Made by a program: the position numbers and the translations under genes. The notes under the pieces were generated by a model that saw only the letters and a list, made by a program, of their open reading frames with translations, was not told the DNA's origin and searched no databases. A stretch of 64,000 nt of DNA from Polytrichum commune (lineage: Eukaryota; Streptophyta; Polytrichopsida; Polytrichales; Polytrichaceae), in assembly GCA_950295325.1 (NCBI GenBank), contig OX485805.1, positions 27,887,501 to 27,951,500 on the forward strand. Direction: 5' to 3'. Positions 7,750 through 64,000 of the stretch are shown here, one piece after another. Position 1 is the stretch's first letter; the number at the start of each line of letters is the position of its first letter.

Positions 7750-8136
7750 AGTAAGTTCTCCTTGTTTGCTGCTCATTTGCTTATTAGCTCATTAGCTCAT
7801 TAGTAAGTTTTGCTTGCTGCTTGCTTGCTTGCTGCTCATTAGATCATTAGGATGCTCATTGTTGCTTGCTACTGCTCATTAGGTTGTTTTCAGTTGTTGA
7901 TCTTAGTTGTTGCAAGGGTAATTAGTGTTTCAGATGTTGCTCATTAGGGTTTCAGTTGTAGCTTCACCATGTAGTTCATTATATTTTTTGCATACAAATC
8001 AATAGTTTCCTTTCACTTGTGTTGCATGAATCTGATTTATGAGCAACTTTTTTTGAGTAGTTCTCAATGTTGAATCATGCATGTGCACATTGAATTACTA
8101 GAGGTTTCTGACCTCAATTTTATTGTTCATTTGCAG

Positions 8137-8195
8137 TTGGTATTAGCTGCAGCAGGAGCAGCTAGTTGTGGTTTAGGAGCAAACACTCTAGAAAG
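8137..8195 (+). other. Possible non-coding leader exon of locus A
   Basis: The segment is bounded by a good acceptor (TTCATTTGCAG) and a good donor (GAAAG then GTAAGT). It holds no start codon in a long frame, so it would be untranslated. Support is splice-site quality only. Confidence 0.35.
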
Positions 8196-8407
8196 GTAAG
8201 TTTTTTAGAACATTGCAATTGCATTTTGTATGATTGCAATTTTGGGTTGTTGTGGTTTAGGGCTTAAGGTTAGCATGACAGAATGTGAGATTCCAGTTTC
8301 AAGGAATTCTGAATTTGTTTAGTACTTTGTCTATGGCTACATTCTAAGAATCATTTAGTTATGGACATGTCAGTGTTCTGAAAGTGCCTTATGTTGTCAA
8401 TCTGCAG

Positions 8408-8479
8408 TGCAGTGTTTGCTGTTGCAGTGAAGTAAGATTGCATTCTTATTTGGAGGGCAAAACCATATTGGACGACAAG
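8408..8479 (+). other. Possible last leader exon of locus A
   Basis: An acceptor (ATCTGCAG) and a donor (GACAAG then GTAAAG) bound 72 bases. The following intron (8480-9348) ends exactly before the start codon of exon 1 and contains the palindrome array, the same arrangement as at loci B (donor after 36391) and C (donor at 63901). Confidence 0.4.
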
Positions 8480-8529
8480 GTAAAGTCCCGAAAAACACGG
8501 AGCATTAATGAAAACATTGGAATACGCAA

Positions 8530-9002
8530 ACATTACAATAGCCTTTATAATCCTCAAAGTTTACGGACGCGCGTCCGTAAACTTTGTGGATCTTTGTGTA
8601 GGTGAGAGACAAGCCTCTCAAACAACATATTACGCAAACGAAGCCAAATATTGTAATATTAGGCATATTAAAATAGCCTTTATAATACTCAAAGTTTACG
8701 GACGCGCGTCCGTAAACTTTGTGGATCTTTGTGTAGGTGAGAAACAAGACTCTCAAACCGCATATTACGCAAACGAAGCCAAATATTGTAATATTAGGCA
8801 TATTAAAATAACCTTTATAATACTCAAAGTTTATGGACGCGCGTTCGTAAACTTTGTGGATCTTTGGGTAGGTGAGAGACAAGCCTCTCAAACAATATAT
8901 TACGCAAACGAAGCCAAATATTGTAATATTAGGCATATTAAAATAGCCTTTATAATACTCAAAGTTTACGGACGCTCGTCCGTAAACTTTGTGGATCTTT
9001 GT
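8530..9002. repeat. Tandem array of 135-bp units each carrying the locus-A palindrome
   Basis: Four palindromes of 30 bases occur at 8556-8585, 8691-8720, 8826-8855 and 8961-8990, exactly 135 bp apart. The arms are AAAGTTTACGGACG and its complement around a 2-nt centre (CG, CG, CG, CT); the third copy has one changed base in each arm. The 105 bp between palindromes is also repeated almost unchanged, so the whole unit was duplicated. The array lies in the leader intron of locus A. Long frames read through it on both strands because 135 is divisible by three; I do not regard them as genes. Confidence 0.9.
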
Positions 9003-9094
9003 GTAGGTGAGAAACAAGACTCTCAAAAATATATGTAGGTGAGAAACAAGACTCTCAAAAAAATGTAGGTGTGAAACAAGACTCTCAAAAAAAT
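9003..9094. repeat. Short tandem repeat, three units of about 31 bp
   Basis: GTAGGTGAGAAACAAGACTC followed by an A-run recurs at 9003, 9035 and 9065. It is an internal re-amplification of part of the 135-bp unit. Confidence 0.85.
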
Positions 9095-9139
9095 ATTAAC
9101 CGTAACTTGAATACATTGATATTTACCACCATACTATCT

Positions 9140-9295
9140 TTGCGAAGTTTACGGACGCGCGTCCGTAACTTATAGAGATATTTGAGTATATAATATACGC
9201 GTTATGCGTATTTGGAAGAAATGTATCTTTTCATTTGGATCCAAAAATATAATTGAGACAATTTGGAAAACTTTACGAACGCGCGTTCGTAAAGT
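9140..9295. promoter_or_regulatory. Two single palindromes in the leader intron of locus A
   Basis: An A-type palindrome (TTTACGGACG-CG-CGTCCGTAA) lies at about 9144-9165. A 26-base perfect palindrome of the C type (ACTTTACGAACG-CG-CGTTCGTAAAGT) lies at 9270-9295, just 53 bases before the start codon. The second is the only C-type site noted at locus A. Confidence 0.85.
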
Positions 9296-9348: not shown

Positions 9349-10638
9349 ATGGCATCTAAAAAGAGACATGCAATTGAGATGTTCGTAGAAGCTCTCATTC
9401 CTCCGCTACCAGAAGCCATCAAAGACATAAGTCCCAACGACCATTACAAGCCACAAGATGAAATTGTGGATAATTGGACAGTATTGGTAGAAAAGGACGA
9501 GAAAGAAATATTTGTGCTTAGATTTGCATATCAAATGAAGACGGACATAGATGAAGCTGAGAAGTGGATAAAGCTTAAATCGTGGACAGTAGAGTGTGCA
9601 GTGGCACAAGGGGATTATGTAGTAATAGACCTTGAGAAGAAAGAAGATCGGGTCACTTTCATTTTGCACGAATCCTACCACCCCTTCAACAAAAATGAGT
9701 GTGAGAATGCTAGTACAGATGCGGCTTGCTTCAATCTCCAGACGGAGTTCCAAGACTATGCATGCAATGCACCTTGGACGGGTAAGCGGCTTGGACGACT
9801 TTTGAACAATGTAACAAGAGTAAATGGAGCCTTGCTAGAGGCCAGAAAGGGGAAAGAGAAGAAAAAACAAGTCGTTCCTGAACGACCCAAGCGTGTGCCT
9901 AAACCAGTGCCGGAATCCTCAAGGCCCTCGCAGAGTGGTGCATCAAGAGGGAGCAGACAGGCGAGTAAACGCTCTCACTCGCAGATGGACTCTGGACTAA
10001 CAGAGGGTCCGGATGTCAGCTCTACACTGACTGTCGCTCCACTCCTCAAAAAGGGTCAACGCCCTGACGCCGAACTCTCAACAAAAATATTCCAAGAGTT
10101 CGATGAGAAGACGAAGGGATGCTGGCCCCTTGGCAGGTATTTTACTTTCGAAGTAGACGTCTACAAATGCCACAAGGGCACCAAAAGTATGAATACCAGA
10201 GCAAAAGAAGAAAGCGGTGTATGGTGGCAAATGAACAACATCATGAACAACCCCAACTTTGACAGGCAAACCATTTGTGTGACACCAAAGGATCCTATCG
10301 TTGAAGTCAACGAAAAAAATTGGCCGATTCTCAAGAATGGAGAGTTCTACATTGTCGACGGCCAACATAGTGTAATGGCTGCAAAAGCTCTCCTTGAAGA
10401 CGACGAGTGGAAAAGCCCATTAAAGGAGACAATCCGATATTGGAAGGCATTCGTCGTGCATTCCAAGGACTCGAACCAACTCATAGCAATATCTGCCTTC
10501 ATGAACCAGGGGAATAAAGTGAGGCAGTTCGAGGCTTCATGGGCAGCCAACATCGTGGCTGGGAGGACCTTGTGGGTGGAGCACGAATGTCCCCCAAAAG
10601 AAAGAGATAATGCTGTCGTGAAGAACCCAAAATGGCAA
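9349..10638 (+). CDS. Locus A exon 1: N-terminal region with DGQH (ParB/DGQHR-like) motif
   Basis: First coding exon (430 codons) of an intact gene whose four main exons encode about 1597 residues. The ATG directly follows an acceptor (ATTTGCAG), as at loci B and C, so the leader is spliced. Residues 1-150 form a conserved region of unknown fold. Residues about 195-260 are Ser/Pro/Arg-rich with a basic patch (SKRSH) that could act as a nuclear signal. Near residue 335 stands FYIVDGQHS, followed by WKAFVV and, near 386, NQGNK. DGQH followed by an Asn/Lys-containing helix is the signature of ParB-like/DGQHR domains, which in bacteria and phages often precede DNA methyltransferases. The final residue of DGQHR is Ser here. 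The exon ends NPKWQ in phase 0. No stop or frameshift is seen. The domain call is from motif recognition only. Confidence 0.8.
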
Positions 10639-10655: not shown

Positions 10656-10679
10656 ATTTACGGACGTGCGTCCGTAAAT
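10656..10679. promoter_or_regulatory. A-type palindrome in intron 1 of locus A
   Basis: Arms ATTTACGGACG and complement surround centre TG, 17 bases after the donor of the 132-bp intron 1 (10639-10770). Confidence 0.9.
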
Positions 10680-10770: not shown

Positions 10771-12090
10771 ACATTCAGCAATGCCATATTGACAAAGTTC
10801 TCGAGTATAGACATGAAAACAAGCGGCATGAAAACAGTGCATGAATTAAAAGGCGAACTCAAGCTCATCACTGCAACAGAAGAGACGTGGTCAATATGGT
10901 TGCGACTTTTCGATGCCCACAACAACGGCGACCTTGTCAATCCAGATACGGAGAACACCTACAAGAGCGACTCAAAAGTTAAGGTACCACCAATCCTGCG
11001 AGAGTTCTTTCGTCCCCTCCAAGGATTGATGGACTCGGAGCTGTACAGGGCAGCAGAACACATTCTTCTAGAAACTCCTAGAAGAACTTTGCCCTATCCC
11101 AAAATCTTTCTGAAGCGGCCGAAGCACATGAAGCCATCCACGTACCACATTAAGGAATGGTGCGATTACAGAAAGAAGAAGACCATGGCTGTAAGGGAGA
11201 TTAGCAAATTGCTACCCACCCACAACCTCATTAATAGTGATGGTGAGATCGTGTGGGAGAATTGGAGGAAGCTGAAGGGTGAATACCACATCAATGGCGT
11301 CTCAATGCGAGCTTTGATAAGAGGGGCATCATCCTTCCTTGCCCAACGATCCAGAAGGAACGAAAAGAAGGGATCCATCGACGAGAGGGAGGCAGGGTTG
11401 TATGTTCACTTTCTCGATAGGAAAAAGAACGCGAAATTTGGAGGGTTTGCAAGATTCTGCACGGTTGCAAAGGGCATGAAGTTCGGCGCATGGAACACCC
11501 ATGCTTCAAGAGCCTCTGTGAGAGATGACCCCAGGGGTTGCCCTTTCGCCATTTTTTATTTTCGTGCAATTCCCGGAGCATGGAAGCAAGACGTTGCGGG
11601 AGCACCCTTCTACGAGCCCTTCTTAAAAGCCTTCAAGAGCTATCGCTCGCCTGCCCTCTTCGAGCCTCATGTGTGGTTATGGATTGTAGAGCAAGAGAGG
11701 TCCACATCCATTGTCCATCTGTACACATCAACGATGGACCTCGAATACGATATGTACCACAGCACCTACATCCCAGCGAAGACAGAAGGGATCACTTTCA
11801 TTCAAGAGGCAAGGGGGGTGAAGCAAGTGGGAGCTGTGCAGCTTTATTTCTTAACACGCAAGTCTTCCCCAACTGGGCGATTGCCCATTAAACCACACGA
11901 GGTGTTTAGGAAAGTCTATTCGTTGCCGCCACCACATCCCAAGGAGCTTGTTGAGGAGACAATGCATGCAATCTATCCGGCGTTCGAGCTCCGGATGGAC
12001 TTTTATATAGGGGTCTTGAAGGCTTTAACTGTCATGAGTGAGACAGTTTACAACGTCTTCGGAGGCACGAAGTTTATGTATGCAGCACTG
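10771..12090 (+). CDS. Locus A exon 2: degenerate permuted methyltransferase-like domain
   Basis: 440 codons, entered after CCTCTTGCAG and left before GTGAGT, both phase 0. The N-terminal half (LKGELKLI, KEWCDYRKKKT) is conserved between the loci but unrecognised. The C-terminal half looks like the core of a beta-class (permuted) DNA methyltransferase. PFAIFYFRAIPG (near residue 693 of the protein) sits where D/N-PP-Y would be, followed by a YEPFLKAF...VWLWIV helix-strand unit. The last residues, ETVYNVFGGTKFMYAAL, correspond to motif I (VLDPFxGSGTTxxAA). The motif continues across the intron into exon 3 (MFGLQVNSFVQDSDY). The catalytic DPPY is not preserved, so enzymatic methylation is doubtful; a binding role is more likely. 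Similarity to the fragment at 52944-54700 supports the assignment. Confidence 0.75.
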
Positions 12091-12136: not shown

Positions 12137-12252
12137 TTTTACGGACGCGCGTCCGTAAAAACCCAGTATCAGGTGCATGTGAATTTTACGACCGTGCGTC
12201 CGTAAAATTGTCCAACTTTTGAGTGGTGGTTTTACGGACGCGCGTCCGTATA
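12137..12252. promoter_or_regulatory. Three A-type palindromes in intron 2 of locus A
   Basis: Sites lie at 12137-12160 (centre CG), 12183-12208 (centre TG, one changed base) and 12231-12252 (centre CG, imperfect right arm), about 46 bp apart. Intron 2 spans 12091-12326. The first site begins 46 bases after the donor. Confidence 0.9.
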
Positions 12253-12326: not shown

Positions 12327-13742
12327 ATGTTTGGCTTGCAGGTGAATTCTTTTGTGCAGGATTCCGACTACGATGACGCCCATACTCACAGGGTAATGTC
12401 CTCCAAAATGGATATCCAGGACATCATGGACGTCCTTACACCCCATCCTGTTGTGCCTCTTTCTTCTAGAGAAGAGGCAATGCCCGGAATGGAGACAGAC
12501 CCTGAAGAGGACCAAGATCCCAGTTCCCCAAGAGCGCAACCCTCCACACAGGAGCCTTTACACGGCCTTGTTCGCGACCCAATTAATCCAAGTGCTTTCC
12601 TGCTGGGAACAGACAACACGGATGCGCAGGAGGCACGCGTGAACTTCACTCCGATAAGGGTCCCTCAAACCCCTGTTCTCTCACCTTTTGGGACTCCCAC
12701 CTCTCGAGTTGGATTTCCCTCAACTGCGGGTCCATCTCGTGCTCCAGGAGTTATGGCCGAGAAGGATGTGGACCTTGCGGCAGAAGGCGGATGCACCGCT
12801 TCATCTGGAGGGGGATCTCAACATTCAGATCTACCCCCTATGGAGGGGAGGGATGTGCTGGAGTTGATATTGAGGCCTGATATCTCTCTATATCGTGAGA
12901 GTCGACGAAAGAGGAACAAGACGCCATACAACGAATACCCTGAAGGCGCGGTCTTGGAGCTCTCCGATGAAGACGAGGATGAGATTAGGATTCACAATGC
13001 CATCTCTGCCTTGCCTACGGAACCTGGCAAGGTGAAGAAAGAGCCGATGTCAGTGTCCGAATTGGACGAGAAGATGGAGAGGCGAATGAAGGAAGAGCTT
13101 GACCAACGGCTTCGAGAAGCTAACGAGGAGCACGCCAAAAAGATGGCCGCCATCCAAGCTGAGATGGAGCAAGCTAGGTTGGAGTCTGCTCGAAGGCACG
13201 CCGATCTCATGGCCCAAAATCAACAGTTCTTGGCCCAAAGTCAACAATTTATGAGCCTGATGCAGAGCTTGCAGGCAAGACCCCCTGTAGTCTATACAGC
13301 TCCCGATGCCGTCATGTCTATGCCCCCCACTCTCATGCGGCCTCCGTCTAGTAGCCATGCGGTGTATATACCCGAGCATGCTTATCCAGCCCCCGCGTTG
13401 ATTGTCCCGCCCTCTCCCCTTGTTGTCGCCACTCCAGAGGAGCCCTCCTCTCATCCTACAGGAGTGGAGGAGATACCGGCACGTGACATGGCGGGTGCCG
13501 CCGAGACAGATGTCAATGAAGGCAATGCCCCCATCGGCGATGAAGATGTACATATGCGGGGCAGCCAAGACTCCACAGATGAGGATCAGCCTTACGTGGA
13601 TACTCAAGGGTCGCAAGCGGCTGGAGACACCTTGTTGGTGGTCGAAGATCTGGACAATTTTGCGGACGTGCGTCCGGATCCTGTGCCCATGACGGGGCCA
13701 GGTGAGGGAGGCACTGCTGGCGCGGACCTCGCCCTTGAAGAG
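12327..13742 (+). CDS. Locus A exon 3: end of motif I, SIM-like motif, coiled coil, disordered tail
   Basis: 472 codons after acceptor GGTCCAG. The first 20 residues complete the methyltransferase-like motif I. A long disordered Pro/Ser stretch follows. Near 12925-12985 is YNEYPEGAVLELSDEDEDE: a hydrophobic core, Ser and acidic run typical of SUMO-interacting motifs. Ten to twenty residues on, KVKKEP matches the sumoylation consensus (hydrophobic-K-x-E). Then comes a coiled coil of about 70 residues (SELDEKMERRMKEELDQ onwards, Q-rich at its end). All these elements are conserved in B and C. The frame meets a stop at 13755, but the conserved GAG then GTAA at 13740-13746 at all three loci, with phase-0 acceptors downstream, argues that it is a splice donor. 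Confidence 0.75.
13660..13679. promoter_or_regulatory. A-type palindrome inside the coding part of exon 3, locus A
   Basis: GCGGACG-TG-CGTCCG lies within the codons for FADVRPDP, about 65 bases before the exon end. Loci B and C also have palindromes in the end of exon 3. Confidence 0.75.
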
Positions 13743-13771: not shown

Positions 13772-13787
13772 TTACGGACGCGCGTCC
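13772..13787. promoter_or_regulatory. A-type palindrome with decayed right arm in intron 3, locus A
   Basis: TTACGGACG-CG-CGTCC lies 29 bases after the exon-3 donor; the outer right arm (GTAA) is lost. Intron 3 spans 13743-14082. Confidence 0.8.
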
Positions 13788-14082
13788 AAAACTTCCTTGT
13801 CTGCCTCCTTCGTGGCGTGTGTATATTATCGAGTTCAATCCTCGACTTCGCCCGGCGGGTGGATACAATGTTGTTAGCATAGATTCCATTAACTTCAACA
13901 GATATTTTTTGCGACAATGTATATTATTCACCAAATGTATATCACCAATTACATTAATACCAATTTTTCAACTGGATGGTTCGGATTATTTTTGGCCTTA
14001 TAATTTGTGTTGAGTTTATCCATGCTTGTCAATTGGTTTTCTTGAGTAGTACCATTTACCTAGATAGAATGTTCCATCACAG

Positions 14083-14850
14083 GGTCCGTCGGAGATATGT
14101 CGCAACCCCGCGGGAAAACCAAGCGCGCCCATGATGAAACCGTTCATAATATTTGACCTCAATGGGGTGCTTTGTCAATCCAAACATATCTCGAATAGTG
14201 CGTCCAAGGGGCCCTTCCGTAGTCCACAAGACATGGATTACGGCGGACATTTCGATACTCTCATAAATAAGAAGGTTGTACGTGCCCGCCCCGGTTTGAG
14301 GAGCTTCCTTCGTGAGGTCCTTGGCTTCGCCCATGTCATCATCTGGAGCTCTATGCTCATGGACAACACGAAGGCCATCGTCGGTTTCCTTTTCCGAGAA
14401 CTCGCAATGCCATGCTTGCTTCTCGGTCAAGAACACTGCGATGACCTCTATGACCGTAGTGGCAATATTGTACCCAAGGTCGGAGGAGGTCGTGGGCCTC
14501 AATTCTTAAAGGTCCTGAGGAAGAACCTCTGGGTGGGCGTCCCTATGTTGGAGGGGGTTCCCCACGGTTGTTGGCCCACCCCGGATAACACACTCCTCAT
14601 TGACGACAGCCCGGCAAAGAGTATTCTCAATCCCCCGGGCAATTGCATATTCCCGGATCCTTGGGAAAGCGATAGAAATGACAACTTTCTAGAGAGTGAA
14701 CTAGGACCCTACATTAGGAGGCTTGCCTATCACCCCGGAAGTGTCCCGGATTTTGTGCTCTCCAACCCAATTGGCAATAGGCCTCTAGGCCCACAAGATG
14801 AGGAATTTAGGAGATTGTATGGCTACGCTAGACTCAATAAATTAATATGA
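14083..14850 (+). CDS. Locus A exon 4: NIF/FCP1-like HAD phosphatase domain
   Basis: 255 codons plus stop, entered in phase 0 after CCATCACAG and in frame with exon 3. The HAD motifs are clear: FDLNGVL (motif I, nucleophile Asp at exon residue 25), IIWSSM (motif II), and LLIDDSPAKSILNPPGN (motif III/IV, DD at about 174-175), the pattern of NIF/SCP/FCP1-type phosphatases that act on phospho-Ser-Pro. The second motif-I Asp is Asn (DLN instead of DLD), as in some plant NIF-family proteins, so catalysis may be weak or absent. The end (LNKLI then stop) is conserved at all three loci, so this is a true C-terminus. A shorter protein starting at the ATG at 14131 is possible. Confidence 0.85.
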   Translation, partial: GPSEICRNPAGKPSAPMMKPFIIFDLNGVLCQSKHISNSASKGPFRSPQDMDYGGHFDTLINKKVVRARPGLRSFLREVLGFAHVIIWSSMLMDNTKAIVGFLFRELAMPCLLLGQEHCDDLYDRSGNIVPKVGGGRGPQFLKVLRKNLWVGVPMLEGVPHGCWPTPDNTLLIDDSPAKSILNPPGNCIFPDPWESDRNDNFLESELGPYIRRLAYHPGSVPDFVLSNPIGNRPLGPQDEEFRRLYGYARLNKLI

Positions 14851-15941: not shown

Positions 15942-16149
15942 TATGATATTGATTTTCCATATGCAAATGTTTTCATATATCCCATTTTCTTATTGTTAAT
16001 GTGTAGTTCCATGCATTTGAGTCTCTTATTTGTTTCCAAAATTGGGAACATAGCATATTTTTAGTGTTTTCATTCCTATAAATGTGAAAGCCACGTCCTT
16101 AAATAGTCTCAAAATTAACAAAAAGTCTCCAAATAACGAATATAGTGTT

Positions 16150-18552
16150 ACTAGAGTTCAACCAAGATGGTGAGGACTTGGCCAAGGATGGTAAACAAGT
16201 CTTGGAGATGACCAAGTTGTTGGTGGAGAAAGCCCGAAGGTGCTACGGAGTGCAAATCAATGCCGGAAGACGCGAAGTGGAGTATGAGGTGGGCCAATAA
16301 GGTGTTGTTGAATGTGGACAACTTCACCTTGCCCAAAGGCCTTACTCCAAAAGTTCATGTCCAAAATTGGAACTTCGTTTTCCATTGTGGAACAAGTGTT
16401 CAAGGACATGTATAAGTTGGAATTACCGCCGGAGATCAAAGTGCATCCGACATTTCATGTCTCATTACGAAAGTCATTTTAGGACGACACCTTGTGGCCC
16501 GATCACAAGCAAGTGATTAGGCCACGTCCCGACCTTGTGGAGGTCACTTGGAACATGAGGTAGGAGGGCATCCTCAAGTGTAGGAAGCCCAAGTGAAAAT
16601 GAAAGAAAATGTACAAAGGAATACTTGGTGAAATGGTGAGGATACCATGAGAAAGAAACCGCTTGGGTGGCGGCAAGAGACATGGTGAACACCAATGAAT
16701 TGGTGAAGCACTTTGAAGAAACTAAGGCTAAGGATTCCAATAAAATGAAGCGTAGGCATTGATGAGGACATCAATCTCCTTTAGTGGGGGAGAGACGCTA
16801 GTAGCACACTTAGCTTCGAGGTTAATTACTCCACAACATGAACTTGTTCTTTGGCTTGAGGAAATAAAGTCCAAACTTTAGTGGTGCAAAGAGAAAAGTA
16901 TGAGATGAGGTCCTAGTCTTGTACTTGTGCTTGGTTAATGGAAGAGGGGGAATAGACATGCCAAACTAGGTTGGGTAAGCCGAGTAATTGGGGGCCATGG
17001 CTTGGAGGGGCCTTGGATAAAACCAAGAAACTTCTTAGTTGTGGGTTTGTCCGGGCGGGGACAAGGTGATGGCGCGTGCTCATAAAAGTGCTACCCACGA
17101 GCTAACGAGAGTTGGCGCATGGGAGTCATGAACCCATGTCTCGAAAGAGCAAAGTGGGAACCGAGTCGGGCGGGACTTGGCATCACCCCCGTGCGATCGA
17201 GGCGTGGCTTAACAATGGAAAGCCATCTCGGAGTTGCAACCGAGACAACTTAGTGGAAGCGTTGAGGTCTCGCCTAGATGTGTCATGTTAGGCTAGTGGA
17301 GCCTAACGGGGGAGGCCCCAAAGGAGGGGCAACCCAAGTGAGTCCCAAAGTAGGTGGGTCTAGTATAGGTTAGGTCCTTGGATGAGAGATCCAAGGTCGC
17401 TAACGGACCACCTAGGAACGACACCTTTGGGACCATGCCAAATTTGAACATGCATTGTGGGGGTCGCGCCCTAAGGTAAACACAATGCCGCACCATAGAG
17501 GATGGCAACTTGAGAATTGGTGTGCCGACTAAGAGTATAGTCGATGAGGGCATCGACTCCGTTTGGTGGGGGTGAGTGTCGCGCACCTCTCCATGAGGAG
17601 TGGCCGAAACACCATGGGCACAAGGGGGACCCCGGAGTGACACCCGGGACTTGTGGCGCCGTTGGTGAGAGGGCCCAAGTGATCCTAGTGTGGGTGAGGG
17701 CCCCGGGCGTTGGGAACGCCTCCCACCCACGGAGACTAGGAGGCACAAGGGTAAGGCCATGAGCTATGCGTAGCTCATGGCGTAGTGATTCTAGAATGCT
17801 CAAGAACACCTCAATCGGAGGTGTGAGCTAGGAGTTATGGCCATTTGAGTGGGGCGCTGTCCCAGGACAGCGCCCTGCTACAGCAGTGCCTGGGAGTGAT
17901 TCCCGGGACTGCCAAGGTTCAAACAGGCATAACTTCCTCACCACTTGCCCGAATGGGGCAAGTGAGGAGTCCATCGGCATCTACGTGAAGCGTAGATGAA
18001 GATGGAGTGGTTGGTTGCTGGAATCAGACATCATACAAGGAAGTTATGATGGTCTGAAGCTGCTGGGCGCTTCTAGGCCCAGCGGCTAAGGGAAAATGTC
18101 CACTTGGCCCCAACTCTTGGTAGAGAGACAAGAGGTTGGTTGACGGTGGGGTAGGGGCCCCGCGTAGAGTCCTAGAGGCTTATATGGGTGAGGTGGTGTG
18201 GCCTCACCCACCCGAGGCCGAACGGCACGGCCTCCATGGGCTTTGGCCCATTGTGAGGCCATAGTTGCTTAGTATGCTTCGGGTTGTTGTAGTGTTGCTC
18301 CGGCAACGCGATGATCAACATAAGATTGGACTTCCATGGATGGAAGTCCACATCTAAGGAGTGGTTACCGATTAAAGGGGTGAGTCCCGAAATCAAAGTA
18401 GGAGGGTTGGTTCCCCTCCTATGAACTAATGGTCCGGGGTTAGAGGAGCTAACCATTAGCATGGCGGTATGCGAAGGGTTAGCGACTCGTAACCTTTGCT
18501 AGAATTGAAAATTGGCAAGATGGTCAAGGGGGGGCTAGCAAGGGTTGCGACA
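16150..18552 (+). mobile_element. 5'-truncated chromovirus (same family as 42502-49902)
   Basis: Homology to the intact element starts abruptly at about 16150 within the end of pol ([12 protein letters not shown] region) and runs through the integrase tail and chromodomain with many frameshifts and stops. The 3' non-coding part, a purine tract (GGTGGGGGTGAG, 17563-17576) and a complete 976-bp LTR (17577-18552, TGTCGCGC...TTGCGACA) follow. Orientation is +. Everything 5' of the pol end is missing and no target duplication can be matched. It lies 300 bases beyond exon 6 of locus A. Confidence 0.85.
17577..18552 (+). repeat. LTR of the truncated chromovirus
   Basis: 976 bp with TGTCGCG/CGCGACA-like ends. 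It contains a GGACTTCCAT-GG-ATGGAAGTCC palindrome and a GGGCGCTGTCCC-type hairpin near its middle. Confidence 0.85.
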
Positions 18553-38466: not shown

Positions 38467-38473
38467 GTGAGTA

Positions 38474-48947: not shown

Positions 48948-48959
48948 GCTCTGATACCA
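48948..48959 (-). other. Primer-binding site, initiator-Met tRNA
   Basis: Minus strand TGGTATCAGAGC, starting three bases inside the 5' LTR boundary; the standard primer site of plant LTR retrotransposons. Confidence 0.95.
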
Positions 48960-48961
48960 CG

Positions 48962-49902
48962 TGTCGCGACCCTTGCTAGTTTTTCTCCACTTAGCTCAAT
49001 CGCTTTCCAACTCTAGCAAGTGTCCCGAGCGCTAACCTGCACATCCCACGCACATGCATGGTTAGCTCCCAAAACCGCGGACCTTCAATCCCATATTTGG
49101 TCACCAAATCCTCCTACACATGCATTCGGGACTCTTTCCCCTTAGTAGGTAACCCATCGCTAAGGTGGACTTCCATCCATGGAAGTCCACTCCCTACTTG
49201 GTCATAGTGTTGCTAGGACAACACTACAACCACCCGGAGCACATTGCCAAGTATGCTCCGGGGGGGGTCGGTCGGCAAAGCCGCCTCACCCATATAAGCC
49301 TCTAGGACTTTTGGCGGGGCCCCTCCCCCACCGTCAACATCCCTTTTGTCTCTCTACCAAGAGTTGGGGCCAAGTAGACATTTTCCCTTAGCCGCTGGGT
49401 CTAGAAGCCTCCCTGCAGCTTCAGACCTTCATAACTTCCACGTGCGGTCTCTGAATCTAACAACCAACCACTCTATCGTCATCTACATTTCACGTAGATC
49501 CCTATGGACACCTCACTTGCCCTATTCGGGCAAGTATTGAGGAAGTTATGCCTGTTTAAATCTTTGCAGTCCCGGGAGCCACTCCCAGGCCCCTGCTGTT
49601 CCAGGGCGCTGTCCCGGGACAGCATCCCACTCAAAGTGCCATATCTCCTAGCTCACACCTCAGATTGAGGTGTTCTTTAGCATTCTAGAATCGGGACGCC
49701 ATAAGCTACTCATAGCTTATGGCTTTACCCTCATGACTCCTAGTCTTTGTGGGTGGGAGGCGTTCTAAACGCCCGGGGCCCTCACCCACCTTAGGATCAC
49801 TTGGTCCCTCTCACCAATGGCGTCACAAGTCCCGGGTGTCACTCCGGGGTCCCCCTTGTGCCCATGGTGTTGCGGGCACTCCTCATGGAGAGGTGCGCGA
49901 CA
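48962..49902 (-). repeat. 5' LTR of the chromovirus
   Basis: 941 bp, apparently identical to 42502-43442. Confidence 0.95.
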
Positions 49903-49907
49903 CCGCC

Positions 49908-50628
49908 CCCGCGGCCGAAGAAACGATTCCTGGTGTTAGACCTGAACGGGGTCCTCGTCCAATGCGTTCATTGCCCGAGGACCCCCACGGTGCCCTTTTG
50001 CAAGCCCGAGGACGCGAATTACGACGGCCCGCCCACGTTCATAAAGAGCAAGCTAGTTCACCTCCGCCCGTGGCTTCGGACCTTCCTCCAGCTGGCCCAA
50101 CAACGATGGTGGGTGGTCGTTTGGAGCTCCATGACGGCCGAGAACACCAATGCCGTCGTGGAGTTCATCTTCAAGGGCATCGAGCCCCCCTGCATGGTCC
50201 TAGCACAGGAAGCCTGTAGAATATTGTACACACCGGACGGCAAAGTCGTCAAAAAACCAAACAACCCCGCTTCCCCCCAATACCTCAAGGTCTTGAAGCC
50301 CATTTTTTGGGACCAGCGGCCGTCCTTGATAGGCGTCCCCTACGACGTCCGTCCCACCCGCGAGAACACGCTCATGGTGGACGACAGCGCCGCAAAGAAC
50401 ATGTTGAACCCGACGGCCAACCTCATAGTTTGCCCTACCTGGACGGTCGAGAAGGTCCGGGACCGATTTTTGTTAGACCTTGGTAAATACCTCCAGGCGC
50501 TCTACGGAAGCGGACTGCCCGTAAACAATTTTGTTAGGAACAATCCGATAGGCGAGAGATACTTGGATCCACGAGACCATTTGTACAGAGAGTTGTTATC
50601 TCACGCGAAATTTAACAAGCTCATTTGA
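49908..50628 (+). pseudogene. Locus B exon 4, second part: NIF/FCP1-like HAD domain
   Basis: It resumes the frame interrupted at 42501 and carries LVLDLNGVL (motif I, Asn at the second Asp position), VVWSSM (motif II) and LMVDDSAAKNMLNPTAN (DD motif), ending FNKLI with TGA. Upstream of this segment the local frame comes from the LTR (start at about 49801), so if transcribed today it could make an LTR-HAD chimera starting at an ATG such as 49819. Function as at locus A; broken by the insertion. Confidence 0.85.
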
Positions 50629-52545: not shown

Positions 52546-52943
52546 CTAAACCATCACAAATATGAGTTATTAATGGGGTTCTTGGTCTAAACACCCGCTT
52601 CAAAGTGTTCGCATCTTACAACTTTCACCAATATGTGTTCCATTTATCCTTGTTCTTATTTCTATGAATGTCTCAAAATGCCCAAAAAGTCTCAATTTAA
52701 CGAATATAGTGTTATGTTATAAGGTCAATCTGATATGAGGTTGAATATGGGTGTCATAAAGGTACTTTGATTTGTGGTTAGATATGTGGGTAACAAGTGT
52801 AACCTGATAAGAGGTTAGATTTGTGTATTATATAAGGTTAGTAATGAGTATAGATATGTTTGATATAAGGGCTAGTACTAGGCAATGTACAAAGCAAGGA
52901 GGATTATTTTAACACCAAACCTGGTTGTCCTTTGATTGTGCAG

Positions 52944-54700: not shown

Positions 54701-55137
54701 GTATGTCTTTGTAATCTTGCATTTCAGTTGGTTAAAACACTATATTCGGTATTTGGAGATTTTTTGTTGATTATGAGACTATATAAGGATGCACATTTCA
54801 AAAATGGACCAGTAATGACGACTAAAAATCCCATATGTATAATGGTATGCTACTATTATTATACATAAAGGCATGGAAGTGAACAAAAATGTGAGGCATA
54901 CATGAAAATAGTTGCGTATGAAATGACAACTCGTTATGAATGGAAGGGAAGATGCGAAGAATGAATGGAAGTTGAATGAATTAATTGGGATAGAAATACA
55001 ATTATAATGGAAATACCATCAATGTCTTGAGTAACTTGGAATAGCATAGAAAGTAAGCACTTAAATATGTTCTACACCTAAGCCCATTTAGGGAGTCCGT
55101 CCCACTAGTACGCTTCTAGTCACACTAGTCCGACCCA
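54701..55137. other. AT-rich gap
   Basis: No reading frame, repeat or palindrome is visible between the methyltransferase-like fragment and the end of locus C. Confidence 0.5.
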
Positions 55138-57206: not shown

Positions 57207-57974
57207 TCAAATCAATTTATTGAGTTTGGCGAGCCTCATGATGCTCTTATATACATTATCGCGGGGGCTTAGCGCCGCATTGCCGAAGGGTTTGGACCTA
57301 ACAAAAAATGGGATGCTACCGGCGTGGAGCACGAGCCTTCTAAGGTAGGGGGCTAGCCTATCGACCAAAAAGGAGTCTTGCCTATCGCCGGTCCAAGTGT
57401 CCGGGAAGATGACGTTGCCCGGGGGGTTCAACACGCTCTTGGTGGGACTGTCGTCGATGAGGAGGGTGTTCTCAGGAGTCAGCCACCACCCGTGGGGCGT
57501 CCCCTGCAAACGGGGGACGCCTTGCCAGAGTCTTGAGCGGAGGACCTTGAGGAACTGTTGTCCTCCGCCTCGACCGCCAAACTTGGGCACCGGTTGGCCC
57601 TTCTCGTCGAGCAGCTCGTCGCATTCCTCTTGGCCGAGGACGAGGCAAGGGCGCGGGAGATCACGGAACAAGAAGTCGACGATGGGCTCCGTGTTCTCCA
57701 TGACCATGGAGCTCCACACAACGACGTGGGCGAACTCGACCACCTCGCGAAGGAAGTCGCGCAGGCCGGGACGGGCGCGGACAACCTTGCGGTTTATGAG
57801 GGTGTCGAGCTCGCCGTCATAGTCCCTTTCGTCGGGGTGACGGAAGGGACGCGTGGGAACCCTGGGGATGTGTTGGGTGTGACACAAGACCCCGTTGAGG
57901 TCAAAAACTATGAAAGGCTTGTTCCGGGTTCAAGGTCCACTGGTCGAGGGGTTGCGACCTATCTCCGGGGGGTC
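57207..57974 (-). pseudogene. Locus C exon 4: NIF/FCP1-like HAD domain with early TGA
   Basis: Same length as locus A (768 bases) and starts in phase 0 after TCATCACAG. An in-frame TGA lies at codon 15 (57932-57930), upstream of the HAD core. The core itself is open: VFDLNGVL, VVWSSM, LLIDDSPTKSVLNPPGN, ending LNKLI with TGA. A fresh start at an internal ATG (57887) would lose motif I. Confidence 0.8.
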
Positions 57975-58110
57975 CTGTGATGAACAACGCGACTAGTTTA
58001 ATTCTATGATCCAATAATGAAATTTTTGCGTTCAAAATAAAGACGATGCATTATGGGAAAAGAGGAGGAAGTAAGGAGGGTTCAAGGAAATATGCACAAG
58101 GGCACAATTG

Positions 58111-58256
58111 CGAACGAGCGTTCGTGAATGAAGGCTGCGGGGGCGGTGCGCATCATTTACGAACGCTCGTTCGTGAGCGCGGATGCATACATATACGAAC
58201 GCTCGTTCGCGAAGGAAGTCGAGAGGGGGTCGCACAGTTTTACGAACGAGCGTTCG
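58111..58256. promoter_or_regulatory. Four C-type palindromes within intron 3 of locus C
   Basis: Cores CGAACG-NN-CGTTCG lie at 58111-58124 (AG), 58160-58173 (CT), 58196-58209 (CT) and 58243-58256 (AG). All centres are non-self-complementary dinucleotides and the outer bases vary. Confidence 0.9.
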
Positions 58257-58548
58257 TGAGTGAGGTGTGTATGCAAAGAATGCAAAGACACGCAAGAGCA
58301 CAGACAACACAAGACGCGAGAATATGCAATAAGTTGTGGTGATGCGAGCAGAGATCGTCTGCTCATATATTAATTCGGTGAATATGTACAATTGTCTCGC
58401 GTGATAATCTATCAAAATTTCCTAAGGAAAAAATTCAGTGTCCTACAAAATTGATCGGCCCAAGGGATCACGTAGAAAAAGGCTCGCGCGGGCAACGTGA
58501 TGTCGATGGAGTTGAAGCGCCAAGAACACAACGCGGGGGTTAGTGATG

Positions 58549-58626
58549 TTACGAACGCGCGTTCGTAAAACATTTGGCATTCTCAGAGATGAGTTACCTC
58601 TTTGGTTAACGAACGCGCGTTCGTAA
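58549..58626. promoter_or_regulatory. C-type palindromes flanking the exon 3 donor of locus C
   Basis: 58549-58568 (centre CG) lies in intron 3, 29 bases after the donor at 58597. 58607-58626 (centre CG) lies in the last codons of exon 3 (TNARSLTKE), so the 5' splice site is bracketed by two sites. Confidence 0.9.
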
Positions 58627-60001
58627 TATCCATTGGGGCAGCAGCCTCTGGATCCATGACCTCCACCGGACGCTCCGCCTGAGACGACTGGGTCTGTTGG
58701 ATGAGCTCCACGTCGTCGTCCCCGCCTAGGTCGAGTCTCTCCATGCGGACATCCTCCATGTGCGCGGATGGATGTCGTTCCTGTTCAGGGCTCTCCACGA
58801 CCATCCCACGCGGACCTGCCGAGTCATTGGGGCTCCCCTGCGTTTCCTCCACAATGACCATGTCAGTGTGTTGCGCAGTGTCATCGCCCCTCCTATCTAC
58901 AACCCTTGGGACGACGGTGAAAGAGGTCGTGTCCGTGTCTGTGGGCAGTCCTACCCTTGAAGGGGGAGGGGTGAGGACTGCCGGACCTGAAGATTCACGA
59001 ACGCGCGTTCGTAAATCTTCATCCTCCCTTAGCGCCGCCGTGATTGCATCGTGGGAGGTTGAGGCGGTCGCCGTCACCTCCGGGGGCAATGGACTTCCCG
59101 CCGGCGTTGGGTGTGGCGCTGTTTGGTGGGAAGGCCCTCCTTGGTACATGACTGGAGGTGGGGGCTGTGAGGGGTATCCTCCAGGGGGGAAGGGGTAAGG
59201 TTGCTGGACCGGCGCAGAGAAGCTCTGCATGTTTCTGAGCATCTCGAAGATGGCGTCAGTTTTGGCCGTTGATTCCCTCAGCTGCTCTTGCAGCCTGGCC
59301 AGATGCTTGGCGCTCTCCTCCTGGGCTACAGCCATCTCCTCCTTCATCTTCGCCTCCAGCTTGGCGTTGAGCTCAGAGACGGTAAGCGCCTCCTCCTTCA
59401 CCCGCTTGTTCTTGTCGTAGTCCACCCCAAGCTCGGCCATGATGTCCATGTCCCCCTCGTCCTCGTCAGAGACCTCGATGATTGCTCCCGGCGGCAACTC
59501 CACGTAGGGAGTCTTCTTCATCCTCCTCCTCGTGTTGCGGAAGAGGTCCAAAGATGGACGCGAGCGTTGGTCGAGGATGTCCAGGGTTTCCATCTTCGGA
59601 ACCACGGCGGGCCTTGGAGACTGTGACGTCGAGCATCCGCCTGGCGTTCCGAAAGGCTCCGCAAGAGACGTTCGCGCGGGGAGGAGGTCCAGGGTTGTCC
59701 CCGCGGACGACCCTGTATAACCACCCGGAGTCCCTTGAGGGTCGGGAAGATCTGTCGTTGGCGGCAAGATCCGAAGCGGGGGTACGTCGAAGGACTGCAG
59801 AATGGCGTCCACGTTGGCGGAGGGGGCGGGCTCGTCGTCCTCTGAATCGTGGAGTGGTATGCCCTCGTCGGCGGGCATACTGAAGTCCATCCTTGGGACA
59901 GAGATGTCCTTGAGGTCCATCGTCGACGCCTTCGCACGGTGGATCTTGAAGTCTTCTTCGTCGATAGCGTCAACGAAGGTGTTGACTACGAGACCCATCA
60001 T
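58598..60001 (-). pseudogene. Locus C exon 3: motif-I end, SIM-like motif, coiled coil
   Basis: 468 codons without lesion between CTTCTCACAG and GTAACT, phase 0. MMGLVVNTFVDAIDEEDF completes motif I. YVELPPGAIIEVSDEDEGD is the best SIM-like motif of the three loci. RVKEEALTVSELNAK holds the sumoylation consensus VKEE and opens a coiled coil of about 60 residues. The tail is Pro/Ser-rich with alternating acidic segments. It is marked pseudogene because exons 1, 2 and 4 carry stops. Confidence 0.75.
58991..59018. promoter_or_regulatory. C-type palindrome inside coding exon 3 of locus C
   Basis: AGATTCACGAACG-CG-CGTTCGTAAATCT, 28 bases with one mismatch, translated as DLRTRVRES. Confidence 0.9.
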
Positions 60002-60031
60002 CTGTGAGAAGAGAGCAATAAGGTCAGAAAA

Positions 60032-60205
60032 TACGAACGCACGTTCGTAAACATCAAAGCGTGGCGTGCAATGAGTTTTAAGCATTACATTACGAAGGGG
60101 GTTATGTTTACGAACGAGCGTTCGTAAACATCAATGCGTCACGTGCAGCGACTTTGAAACAATGCGTTGAGAAGTTGGTTAACTTTACGAACAAGCGTTC
60201 GTAAA
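60032..60205. promoter_or_regulatory. Three C-type palindromes in intron 2 of locus C
   Basis: 60032-60049 (centre CA), 60104-60131 (28 bases, centre AG) and 60184-60205 (centre AG, one change), about 75 bp apart. The last begins 19 bases after the donor at 60224. Intron 2 is 60224-60002. Confidence 0.9.
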
Positions 60206-60224
60206 TGGAGTCTGGACAACTTAC

Positions 60225-61550
60225 CATGGCCGCATACATGAATTTGGAGCCTCCACATACGTTGTATACCGTCTCTCCACTTATAACCAGACTCTGCAAT
60301 ATAGAGACGTAGAACTCCATCCTGAGTTCCATGGCGGGGAAGATGGTGTAGAGGGTCTCTTGCAGCAGATCCTTGGGAGGGGGATGCGGGATGCTGTAGA
60401 TTTTCTTGAACGTGTTGTTCGCCTTGATAGGCGGTCGCCCATCCCTAAGCTCATTGTACGTCAAGAAAATCAGGCTGACCGCTCCCATTTGCTTGTTGCC
60501 CCTGGCCTCGTTGATGGCCACGATCCCCTCCGTCTTCGCTGGCACGTACGTGCTGTAGAAGATGCTGTACTCGAATTTGATCTTCTGCTCGTACAGCTCT
60601 GTGACGACCGACAGCTTCTCCTGTTCGACTATCCACAGCCAAACGTGTGGCTCCCTCATGGCCGGCAATTTGAACTCCATGAACTTGGCCATGAAGGGGT
60701 TGTAGAAGGGAATGTCCTTCCCCCCCTGCCTTGACGCACCCGGGATCCCCCTGAAATCGATCAGGGCAAAAGGGCAACCCCGTCAATCCTCCCTCACCTC
60801 GGCCCTGCTTATGGTGCCGTCCCACTTGGAAAATGTAACCCTCTCCACGCCGGAGGTCATCACGCAAAACCTTGCCACCCCTTCGAATGTGGCGTTCCTC
60901 TTCCTCTCCAAAAATTGTATGTACAACATTACCTCGTGGGGATCCGTGTCGGTTTTCTTAGTCCTTTTGTTCCCCTTCAACTTCAAAACCGAGGCGTGCT
61001 CCTTGACCAGACTGCGCATGGAGGCTCCGTTGATGTTGTAGTCAACCTTTAACAATTGCCATTGCGGCCAGTTGATGTCGCCGTCGACTTCAAAGATTTT
61101 GTACTCTGGTGCAAGTACGCTCAATTCTCTCATGGCAGCAGTCTTCAGCTTCCGGTGGTCACACCACTCCTTGATAGAGTACGTGCCGGGCTTGTGCTTT
61201 GGCCTCTTCAAAAAGATCTTGGGATAGGGAAGGTTTCTTCCCACGGTGTTCCCAAGAACATGAATCGCACACCTCTTCAGCTCTGACTCCGTCAATCCCT
61301 GGAGGTGTCTAAAGAACTCCCTCAGTAGTGGGGGCGCCTCACCGGTTTTTTCCGTGCTGTACTTCTCCTCGGTGTCGGGATTGACCAAATCGCCCGAGCT
61401 GTGTGCATAAAAAAACTGTGTCCACAAGTCCCAGGTGTCCCTGTTGCAGCAGATCAGTCTGAGCTCACCCTTCAGCTCAAGCACTGACTTGGTGGTGGTG
61501 GACTTCATATCGATGGAAGAGAACTTGTCTACCATCGCGTCGCAAAATGC
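60225..61550 (-). pseudogene. Locus C exon 2: methyltransferase-like domain with nonsense codon
   Basis: 442 codons in register between TTTTGTGCAG and GTAAGT. An in-frame TGA stands at 60785-60783 (RAEVRED then stop then RGCPFALIDFRGIPG); at locus A the same place reads RDDPRG. The rest is well preserved: PFALIDFRGIPG, VWLWIVEQEK, and the motif-I segment ETVYNVCGGSKFMYAAM. The stop looks like a single transition. Confidence 0.8.
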
Positions 61551-61583
61551 CTGCACAAAACAAGATGTCAGTGTTGCACATAA

Positions 61584-61660
61584 TACGAATGCACGTTCGT
61601 AAATTGAGTATGTAATTGAAGTTTTCATGAATCTAACACTTTACGAACGTTCGTTCGTAA
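61584..61660. promoter_or_regulatory. Two C-type palindromes in intron 1 of locus C
   Basis: 61584-61601 (centre CA, one arm change) and 61641-61660 (centre TT). The second starts 6 bases after the donor at 61666. Intron 1 is 61666-61551. Confidence 0.9.
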
Positions 61661-61666
61661 CCTCAC

Positions 61667-62959
61667 CTTCCATTGGGGAGACTGGTTCTTGGCATTCTCC
61701 CTTTCCTTTGGTGGGCATCCGTGTGCCACCCAGACGTCTCTGGCAGCCACTATGTTAGCCGCCCACGAAGCCTCGAACGCCTTGATTTTGTTCCCCGAGT
61801 TCAGGAAGGTTGAAATCTTGCGCAGCTTGTCCCAATCGTCCGACTAGACCAAGAACGCCTTCCAGTACCGCAGGTCAGCCTTCAGCTCGTGCTGGAAGTT
61901 GTCGTCCTTGAGGATCTGTTGCGACGCCTCCAAGCTGTGCTGACCATCTATAATCCAGAATTCTCCATTCTGGATTCGCGGCCAATCCACCTCTGTCGGT
62001 CGGGATGTCAGCCCCTTGGGCATGACACAGACTGTCTGTCTATCCCACTTGACGTTATTCATGAGGTTGTTTATCTGCCACTTCACCCCACCGCTCTCGC
62101 AAGACCTTACCACCCACTTGTTGGGTGACTTTTCGCACTTGAAGCAGTCCACGTTGAACGTGAAGTGGCGCCCCATGGGCCAGCAATCCTTCGAGTAATT
62201 ATTGAAATCTCGTAGGATCTTCGTTGCCTTCACCGCATCTGGATTCTCACCCTTCTTTAAAGGGGTTGGCATCACGGGAGGAGAGCTCACCTCAGCGCCC
62301 TCTGTTACCCCAGACCTCTCCATTTCGTCCCGGGACCTCTTCGATGGCGTGGAATGACGGCTGGGACCCTCCGTCACCCTGCTCACGGAAGGCACCGGCT
62401 TGGGTGCACTTCTCGATCCTCCTGCCCCGGATGCGGATGGTTTCCGTGGGCTCTTCTTCTTCTTGTTGGCTTCCGCGACCGCGCTATTGTACTTGGAGAT
62501 ATTCAAGGAGAGCGCGGCCAACTTCCTTGCTGTCCAGTACGAGCTCAGGGCGTACTTCGTGAAGAGGTCCTTGAGGAAGTGTTTGGCATCAACCACTACG
62601 TTATTTTCCGCGTATGTGTAGGAGAAACTATGTCTCCTGTACTCTAACAATAGGTTAATGTGATCCTTCTTGTTTTTCATGTCTAGAATCACATAATCTC
62701 CTTGTGCCTCAATTGATTCTACTTCCCAAGTCTTCATCTGCACCCATTGCTCTGGCTGGTCCGGCGTCGTTTCCAGCTCGTATGTGAAGCGAAGACAGAA
62801 AAGACCGTCTGATGTCTTCTCTGGCAGTGCCGTCCATTCCCCTATGAAGTCCTCCTTGGGGACATAATTATCGTTTCCGTTGGGGTCGGACACTGACTCT
62901 GGTAGTTGATCTATCTGCACTGCGAACATCTCAATGGCGCTTCTGCTCGGTCTGGCCAT
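61667..62959 (-). pseudogene. Locus C exon 1: DGQH domain with nonsense codon
   Basis: 431 codons from the ATG directly after CTCTGCAG to QWK before GTGAGG. FWIIDGQHSLEAS is near residue 337. In KAFLV-stop-SDD the TAG (61846-61844) replaces the Trp codon of locus B (KALVVWSDN), a G-to-A change. The frame reopens at once and continues FLNSGNK...NQSPQWK. The linker carries TPSKRSRDEMERSG, a basic patch like those of the other loci. Confidence 0.8.
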
Positions 62960-62990
62960 CTGCAGAGCACATAAACATTTAGTATTGTGT

Positions 62991-63562
62991 TTACGAACGA
63001 GCATTCGTAATTGACAAAGCAAATCATATACACTAATCATTGAACTATGGCTATGGATACCCGTGAGAAGTTGTAATGATGTCTTCGTTGATTTCATTTA
63101 CGAACGATCGTTCGTAAAGAATGTGGTTGCTAAGGTGTATTTGACACAAGTTCACGAACGTGCGTTCGTATTGTTTCTAAACAAGTCCACGAGTTGTCCA
63201 GGGTTATCTAATTTCCACGAGGGTTGTTCGAATTTCCATGAGCATCTTCTAAATAGGTGAATTAATACTTTAGTTCTTATTTACGAACGTGCGTTCGTAA
63301 ATAATGCTACTTGGAAATGCAGACAATTACCATGAAGGGTTTGGTATATTGTTATAGTTTGTGATTACGAATGTTCGTTCGTATTTTTGTATGTGTAATT
63401 GGATTTGAGGATTTTCTGATGTACAGGGTATAGACGAATATACGAACGTGCGTTCGTAAAAATGGAGGGTGAGGTGCGTATTTACGAACGCACGTTCGTA
63501 TATGTTTGTGGGGTAAGGCATGTATTCACGCCACATTTACGAACGAACGTTCGTAAATGTGG
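62991..63562. promoter_or_regulatory. Leader-intron cluster of eight C-type palindromes
   Basis: Sites at 62991-63010, 63097-63118 (centre AT), 63153-63170 (TG), 63279-63302 (TG), 63364-63385 (TT), 63441-63458 (TG), 63483-63500 (CA) and 63531-63562 (32 bases, centre AA). Unlike loci A and B they are not in tandem units; spacing varies from about 40 to 125 bp and the flanks are unrelated. Confidence 0.9.
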
Positions 63563-63900
63563 TCATCTGGGATTAGGAAATGGTATATTTATTTATGTAC
63601 ATATATATCCGTACATATACGTATACGTATATGTACATATACATATAAATGTTGGTATGAATGTTGCAATCTGGCATTGTTCATGATCCTGCAACTCGTG
63701 ATCAGATTGATGAAACACAAGTGAAAAATGGAATCAGAACAAAATTGCGAGTCAGTGATTGATAGTTCAGAATGAAGAGGAAAGTGTTATTTCATACAAA
63801 ACATGACATACCTCATAATGCAGAAAACAAATCACAAGGAATTCATCAAACAACAATTTCAGATTGTGAAAGAGTAATTTGTAAAGGAAACCTGTACTCA
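63563..63900. other. Remainder of the leader intron of locus C
   Basis: AT-rich, with an (A/G)TACATATA-type low-complexity stretch at 63595-63645 that contains TACGTATACGTA. Nothing else seen. Confidence 0.4.
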
Positions 63901-64000
63901 CATTGAATTGTTGCACACAAATCCTCCTGCCTTCACTTTGTCACACTCTCAAGCCTTCACAACTTATATGCAAATCCTACACAAACCCTGATGTACACAA
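63901..64000 (-). promoter_or_regulatory. Possible promoter and leader exon of locus C
   Basis: A TATAAG box (minus strand, 63968-63963) is followed after about 60 bases by CAAT then GTGAGT (donor at 63901). A leader exon of about 30 bases would result. The window ends here. Confidence 0.3.

Follow-up and report, generated by a model that had tools for sequence, protein, structure and literature searches.

Three diverged copies of a multi-exon gene in Polytrichum commune, each with its own palindrome family: candidate mobile elements that may recognise themselves

Why would three copies of one gene, lying within one short stretch of a chromosome, each be studded with a different palindrome? 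The question is raised by 64,000 nt of Polytrichum commune DNA (assembly GCA_950295325.1, contig OX485805.1, positions 27,887,501-27,951,500, forward strand), which we call the window and analysed whole. An earlier note on this DNA had described three paralogous loci, A, B, and C, with a common exon plan and a private palindrome each, and had proposed that each encoded protein recognises its own site, so that protein and site diverge together in a kind of plant system not described before. The tracking of palindrome type by protein clade held up in our analysis, and the novelty of the plant system did not. Based on the sequence analyses below, A, B, and C are diverged copies of one multi-exon gene, and we consider the chances slightly better than even that they are copies of a mobile element whose protein recognises the palindrome of its own clade, much as the VANC proteins of Arabidopsis VANDAL elements act on theirs.

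The palindromes (18-20 bp) were located by an exact scan and by a second scan that allowed up to three arm mismatches and assigned each place to its best type. The exact scan returned seven copies of the A-type palindrome TACGGACGNNCGTCCGTA, all within 8562-12250, 25 copies of the B-type palindrome TTTGGGTCGNNCGACCCAAA, all within 31710-41934, and ten copies of the C-type palindrome TACGAACGNNCGTTCGTA, nine of them at 58550-63555. Each family thus lies in its own locus, with the one exception that had already been noticed near 9270, a C-type site at 9274 in locus A. With up to three arm mismatches, 69 places were found in the window: 12 A-type sites (one weak, 15417) and one C-type site in locus A, 34 B-type sites at 31481-41934 plus a weak one at 51659, and 20 C-type sites in locus C plus a weak A/C tie at 56831. 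The same scan of 20 first-order Markov sequences gave means of 0.1 (A), 0.05 (C), and 0 (B) per type, with a maximum of 1. Exact palindromes also occur in viral_contigs (C in 7 contigs, A in 4, B in 0, and a fourth type, A′, described below, in 5), and because these matches carry one site per contig stretch, clustering is not inherent to the words themselves. An Rfam scan at gathering thresholds gave no match. The palindrome-bearing features of the window are as follows.

8532..9034, + strand: leader of locus A, tandem array of 135-bp units, four A-type palindromes (8832 a hybrid)
9274..9291: C-type palindrome in locus A, the single exception of the exact scan
10659..10676: A-type site in intron 1 of A, 20 nt past the 5′ splice site, with similar sites in homologues
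12140..12250: intron 2 of A, A-type sites at 12140, 12187, and 12233
13773..13790: intron 3 of A, one A-type site
31459..32647, + strand: upstream B arrays, tandem units of 76, 79, and 64 bp, with 15 B-type palindromes
36569..37089, + strand: leader of B, 32-bp tandem array and two sites, with 7 B-type palindromes
38473..38896, + strand: intron 1 of B, 57-bp tandem array with 8 B-type palindromes, the first 9 nt past the splice site
40319..40338: intron 2 of B, one B-type site
41915..41934: intron 3 of B, one B-type site
58109..63555, − strand: locus C, 20 C-type palindromes across the leader, introns 1-3, and exon 3
60032-60205, − strand: 77-bp tandem array of locus C

The sites had been placed in non-homologous intron sequence, but they are not confined to introns. 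Exon 3 contains some in frame (A 13661; B 41542 and 41611; C 58608 and 58996), and the upstream B arrays lie 4.5-5.6 kb 5′ of the B start codon. Seven tandem arrays carry palindromes, with unit lengths of 135, 76, 79, 64, 32, 57, and 77 bp, and the largest gap between adjacent sites in the gene body is 1481 bp in A, 1444 bp in B, and 1398 bp in C, the large gaps spanning conserved exons. In 30 of the 33 sites of the A/C family in the window (15417 excluded), the two variable bases agree between the halves. Two A/C hybrids, 8832 and 56831, have one half of each type and are possible intermediates between specificities; at 12187 one half is neither A- nor C-type. The A′ and C palindromes each differ from A by one base per half-site. 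There are four CpG per site in A or C and two in B, and with the sites masked, the observed/expected CpG ratio is 0.39-0.52 in the leaders and 0.17 (B), 0.63 (A), and 1.08 (C) in the introns. CpG-rich sites in CpG-poor leaders would fit a system linked to CpG methylation and do not show one. An apparent extension of the palindromy into the flanks was dropped as weak after stratification by type (six flank positions sum to 113 versus 98.5, P 0.014). A tandem array of 97-bp units (7.8 copies, 51796-52554) towards the 3′ end of locus B carries an imperfect palindrome, GGTTTGGAGTGCCCTACCTAAACC, that has five mismatches to the B consensus and has lost both CpG; it possibly consists of decayed B sites.

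The relation between palindrome and protein could be followed beyond the window in homologues, which came from ena, jgi, lgn, ncbi, and src contigs of 0.8-28.6 kb and are mostly single exons called as open reading frames (ORFs). Three protein searches gave 1, 58, and 43 matches; these are interrelated and may include several copies per genome, so that the counts below are not independent events. Each homologue was assigned to the clade of its best BLASTP match among the window exons. The homologous ORFs overrun their 5′ splice sites (V-S/R, from GTRAGT and similar), and their tails therefore translate intronic palindromes. Among the 83 tail segments of at least six residues that were scored (A 37, C 32, B 14), 50 contain an exact site peptide (A 23, C 20, B 7). 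Shuffled segments contained 0.11 site peptides on average (maximum 2 in 1000 shuffles), and the exon 1 and 2 bodies (37,646 amino acids) contained none. Palindrome type could be told in 38 segments, with 14 A and 4 A′ in the A clade, 13 C in the C clade, 7 B in the B clade, and no crossing; a further 19 segments with RT.VR are ambiguous between A and C. Type tracks protein clade among these homologues, and random mixtures of types, which the earlier note had named as a sign against the link, were not seen among these 38 segments. The type A′, with the peptides RP.GR and TA.RP, implies the palindrome TACGGCCGNNCGGCCGTA, a sequence deduced from peptides rather than DNA.

Maximum likelihood trees built from 50 rows for exon 2 and 37 for exon 1, midpoint-rooted for drawing only, separate the clades with support of 100/100 in both for B, 93/98 and 100/99 for C, and 85/87 and 100/99 for A. 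The two A′ rows of the exon 1 tree fall in one supported group of five that has no typed A rows, and the two of the exon 2 tree fall in two different groups. As far as these sequences go, site type follows the deep clades strictly and finer changes in part only. A comparison of possible specificity residues gave candidate alignment columns only, the typed rows being too few for a conclusion.

The sites also mostly keep their places. Distances were measured with relaxed site patterns drawn up after the tails had been inspected. In intron 1, the first site of the A clade lies 17-21 nt past the 5′ splice site in 12 of 13 tails (49 in the other; 20 in window A), that of the B clade 9-10 nt past it in seven of the eight site-bearing tails, of 11 in total (46 in the other; 9 in window B), and that of the C clade 7 nt past it in the sole tail, as in window C. 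In intron 2, 20 of 24 C-clade tails bear a site, and 18 of them have the first one at 17-23 nt (57 and 93 in the others; 21 in window C); the A clade has 11 site-bearing tails among 16, with the first site at 35-49 nt (49 in window A). The proteins behind these data are 62-95% identical to the window exons, and the intron peptides 5′ of the site share 8.0, 10.1, and 13.0% identity between homologues in the three measurable groups. With a clade-typical distance usually kept in an intron that has otherwise been replaced, the sites look orthologous and selected, and their conserved places are the strongest evidence for function that the sequences offer. We do not claim a function for the spacing as such, since distances over ∼20 nt that have taken only a few small indels could be alike without any constraint on their length.

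The genes that carry these sites share, as had been claimed, one exon plan. Introns 1 and 2 interrupt A, B, and C at identical places in phase 0, and exon 3 ends at an AG/GTAA donor in all three (A 13742, B 41892, C 58598). The stop that follows the exon 3 ORF lies inside intron 3, and the gene continues into a NIF phosphatase-like exon; exons 3 and 4 join in frame in A (acceptor side 14083) and C (57974), and the B acceptor at ∼42410 was read by eye. The exons and their contents are listed here.

9349..10638, + strand: locus A exon 1, N-terminal beta domain, linker, and ParB-fold (DGQH) domain, GT/AG splice sites
10771..12090, + strand: locus A exon 2, helical part and beta-class amino-methyltransferase fold, motif IV replaced (FYFRAIP)
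12327..13742, + strand: locus A exon 3, in which the methyltransferase fold probably ends (by eye), with a low-complexity region and in-frame A-type site 13661
14083..14850, + strand: locus A exon 4, NIF phosphatase-like (DLNGV), Pfam PF03031 E 3.2e-13, in-frame splice
37117..38466, + strand: locus B exon 1
38954..40284, + strand: locus B exon 2, frameshifted near 40130
40420..41892, + strand: locus B exon 3, in-frame B-type sites 41542 and 41611
42410..50628, + strand: locus B exon 4 (NIF-like), split by a long terminal repeat (LTR) retrotransposon at 42502-49910, start by eye
61667..62959, − strand: locus C exon 1, one in-frame stop
60225..61550, − strand: locus C exon 2, one in-frame stop
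58598..60001, − strand: locus C exon 3, in-frame C-type sites 58608 and 58996
57207..57974, − strand: locus C exon 4, NIF phosphatase-like, one in-frame stop

Locus A alone is open across the four exons (1597 amino acids). Locus C has three in-frame stops, one each in exons 1, 2, and 4, and locus B has the exon 2 frameshift and, in exon 4, the 7.4-kb retrotransposon, whose LTRs are 99.8% identical. Exon 1 of A is 34% identical to that of B and 44% identical to the open part of that of C, and near-full-length homologues of the C clade are 52-55% identical to A exon 2. Behind the NIF exon, two blocks are conserved between A (15035-15133 and 15515-15760) and C (56905-57003 and 55160-55415) and are probably further exons.

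The encoded protein is predicted to combine a ParB-fold domain, a degenerate DNA-methyltransferase fold, and a NIF phosphatase-like domain, and the DGQH and methyltransferase-like parts named in the earlier note can be matched at the level of folds. The predicted structure of the exon 1 domain matches the ParB N-domain fold. The CTP-binding motif of ParB is of the GERR type, and by eye DGQHS occupies its place here. The next domain matches the fold of beta-class DNA amino-methyltransferases (M.BceJIV and M.RsrI) and of MTA1, with motif IV preceding motif I (order by eye). The catalytic (D/N/S)PP(Y/W/F) motif is absent, with [DY]F[RC]x[IFL]P there instead, behind strand 259-263 in alignment and model; at this position locus A has FYFRAIP and most relatives have DFRx[IFL]P. 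As the catalytic DPPY-type motif is replaced and motif I is altered, the protein is probably not an active methyltransferase. NIF-family phosphatases have a DxDx(T/V) motif, and A, B, and C have DLNGV at that place. Sub-threshold Pfam hints in exon 1 were set aside (YEATS in A, E 0.018; DUF6551 in 15 of 42 members, best E 0.012). Sequence searches against solved structures gave nothing below E 0.1, and no encoded relatives were found in viral_contigs, in genome_contigs, or, with tblastn at 0.01, in phages, collections from which records nearest the window were possibly excluded.

Further evidence suggests that the loci move. A block of 44-54 bp with 79.5-90.7% pairwise identity is common to A, B, and C and lies 0.3-1.1 kb past the last exon-like ORF.

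16106..16150, + strand: 3′ end block of element A, with a retrotransposon pol starting at the block end
52670..52714, + strand: 3′ end block of element B
54736..54789, − strand: 3′ end block of element C

Other non-coding DNA of the loci scarcely aligns: one comparison returned, at its thresholds, only exon blocks and LTRs, and another only a 26-bp A/C leader match and the palindromes. We read the block as the end of a mobile element, and since in A it abuts a retrotransposon pol, the loci are probably mobile; we regard it as fairly likely that A, B, and C are copies of such an element. No 5′ ends were found, and in the search for terminal inverted repeats and target duplications nothing was convincing, an 8-mer at 8096 lying inside the leader.

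Around these loci the window holds several other features. The retrotransposon at 16150-18553, whose pol begins at the 3′ end of A, is truncated and belongs to the family of 42502-49910. A very young LTR retrotransposon (19876-31315, LTRs 99.95% identical) ends beside the upstream B array, and TTTAGGG, the telomere repeat of plant type, occurs interstitially at 34806-34833 as a tandem run of four copies. A methyltransferase-like exon (LILADIPEG...) at 52932-53300 on the + strand, just past the B 3′ end block, had no Pfam or NCBIfam match. The leader match just mentioned (A 8011-8036 and C ∼63701-63726) is 92% identical, and the leaders are otherwise unalignable except for the palindromes.

How would such a gene use its sites? 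The letters conserved in both halves, the symmetric switching between types, the hybrid sites, and the DNA-handling folds together argue that the product of the gene itself binds DNA as a dimer, and we think it quite likely that the protein binds its cognate palindrome. Each protein, most likely as a dimer, would then recognise the palindrome of its own clade at the 12 to 34 sites that its locus carries in the leader, in introns 1-3, in exon 3, and for B in the upstream arrays as well, and would thereby mark its own element and no other. By analogy with VANC, the likeliest use of this would be to keep that element alone free from DNA methylation and silencing, a purpose that we put forward tentatively, at somewhat less than an even chance.

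Several observations weigh against this account. The elements yielded no transposase (ten window ORFs, Pfam), no terminal inverted repeats, and no target-site duplications, and the other half of A's retrotransposon was not found to the left of A. The homologue sites were read back from ORF-tail peptides and not from homologue DNA, and 33 of the 83 segments have no exact site peptide; these include near misses and hybrids (P0002, P0019, P0081, P0084, and others) as well as many very short segments. The P0019 peptide is hybrid-like, the B-clade tail P0051 has no site, and P0065, P0069, and P0070 are nearly identical. Because related sequences are not independent, the absence of crossings has no simple P value, and the occurrence of A′ in two separate exon 2 subclades makes the fine tracking imperfect. 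CpG depletion near the sites is uneven, as the C introns show, and the fold matches come from models of mean pLDDT 70 and 79, with no Foldseek match reaching 0.001.

Other explanations were weighed on the same evidence. The loci could be a host gene family that arose by ordinary duplication and whose product acts through the sites to repress or adjust its own copy, without any selfishness. Such autoregulation would suit a gene whose own leader and introns are crowded with sites, and the ParB relative KorB is reported to be a repressor (PMC11790492). However, two of the three copies are broken, the loci share a 3′ end block that in one copy adjoins a retrotransposon pol, and a repressor would hardly require 12 to 34 sites with no gene-body gap above 1.5 kb; we consider this explanation unlikely. 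It is also conceivable that a host transcription factor or silencing complex binds the sites, which the genes would merely carry. Binding by the encoded protein is itself deduced indirectly, which leaves room for this idea, but it would call for a separate host factor per deep protein clade, each switching in step with its clade, and we judge it improbable.

Control at the RNA level, in which hairpins in the pre-mRNA near 5′ splice sites let the protein or the structure steer splicing of its own transcript, gains from the position of the first site, which in all eight measured introns lies 7-49 nt beyond the 5′ splice site and is similar in homologues, and from the hairpins formed by all six pre-mRNA stretches tested (z −1.6 to −3.4). 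Yet any perfect palindrome folds into a hairpin, the letters and not pairing alone are kept within a clade, and the 15 far-upstream B sites and the sites in exon 3 argue against a purely RNA role, to which we give little credence. The palindromes could instead be mobile themselves, REP-like elements moved by the gene product into its own gene as by a RAYT. Each family is indeed private to one coding gene and also stands in frame in exons, but no HUH/Y1 transposase was seen in the Pfam scans, many sites are orthologous in place across homologues, and many copies arose along with their tandem unit of 32-135 bp. This we regard as very improbable.

A bolder version of mobile elements recognising their own palindromes, which we advance as speculation and think rather unlikely in full, is that a plant mobile element captured a bacterial ParB-methyltransferase-type protein that lost its methyltransferase chemistry and now acts as a site-specific loader, giving a self-recognition independent of VANC. 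Dimers would load at the clade-private, CpG-containing palindromes, at most ∼1.5 kb apart across the gene, and would spread or persist between them, shielding the chromatin of the element from silencing; at least four site specificities would have evolved by symmetric half-site change via hybrid sites. A literature search limited to one library, by titles and abstract openings, found no published plant ParB-methyltransferase element with its own palindromes. If self-recognition of this kind is real, it would be a second solution, unrelated to VANC, by which a selfish element frees only itself from silencing, and would put the ParB fold to an unusual use in the nucleus of a plant. The related protein-site pairs A, A′, B, and C and their natural hybrids would also serve as a test bed for how specificity and site change together.

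Among known systems, the REP/RAYT pairs of bacteria tie a palindrome family to one coding gene, and the RAYT moves the REPs. The link to one coding gene recurs here, whereas the sites here stand at orthologous places in eukaryotic-type introns, and scans of window ORFs and homologue alignments gave no HUH/Y1 Pfam family. Beta-class DNA amino-methyltransferases such as M.BceJIV and M.RsrI, and MTA1, resemble the protein in fold and in the order of motif IV and then motif I, and differ in that the catalytic DPPY-type motif is replaced here and motif I altered. The parS sites of ParB are palindromic. They are reported to measure 16 bp, and ParB to spread from them in a CTP-dependent way (PMC8494293, PMC8367383). 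With ParB-parS systems, including KorB and Noc, the present loci share the ParB N-domain fold, and they differ in having DGQHS for the GERR-type motif, a plant-type multi-exon gene, and at least 12 sites within the coding gene.

The closest comparison, overlooked when the earlier note called the system without precedent in plants, is with VANC and the Mutator-like VANDAL elements of Arabidopsis, which have element-private short motifs in introns and non-coding parts, tandemly multiplied. VANC21 and VANC6 target motifs that are private to a family and multiply by tandem repetition; DNA methylation is lost from the family's own copies and close relatives alone, and VANC protein and motif diverge together (PMC5735166, PMC10398659). 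A divergence of motif with protein between families is seen here also, by sequence only. Pfam scans of the A and B exons and of two partly overlapping 42-member alignments, with C exons 1-3 excluded, found no DUF1985 or DUF287, and no Mutator-type transposase (VANA) was found in the ten window ORFs scanned, the 5′ limits of the elements not having been located. The VANC21 motif is a non-palindromic 9-mer, YAGTATTAY, and VANC carries DUF1985/DUF287 (PMC5735166, PMC10398659), whereas the sites here are 18-20-bp palindromes that also stand in exons and the protein, with its ParB, methyltransferase, and NIF folds, is unrelated to VANC.

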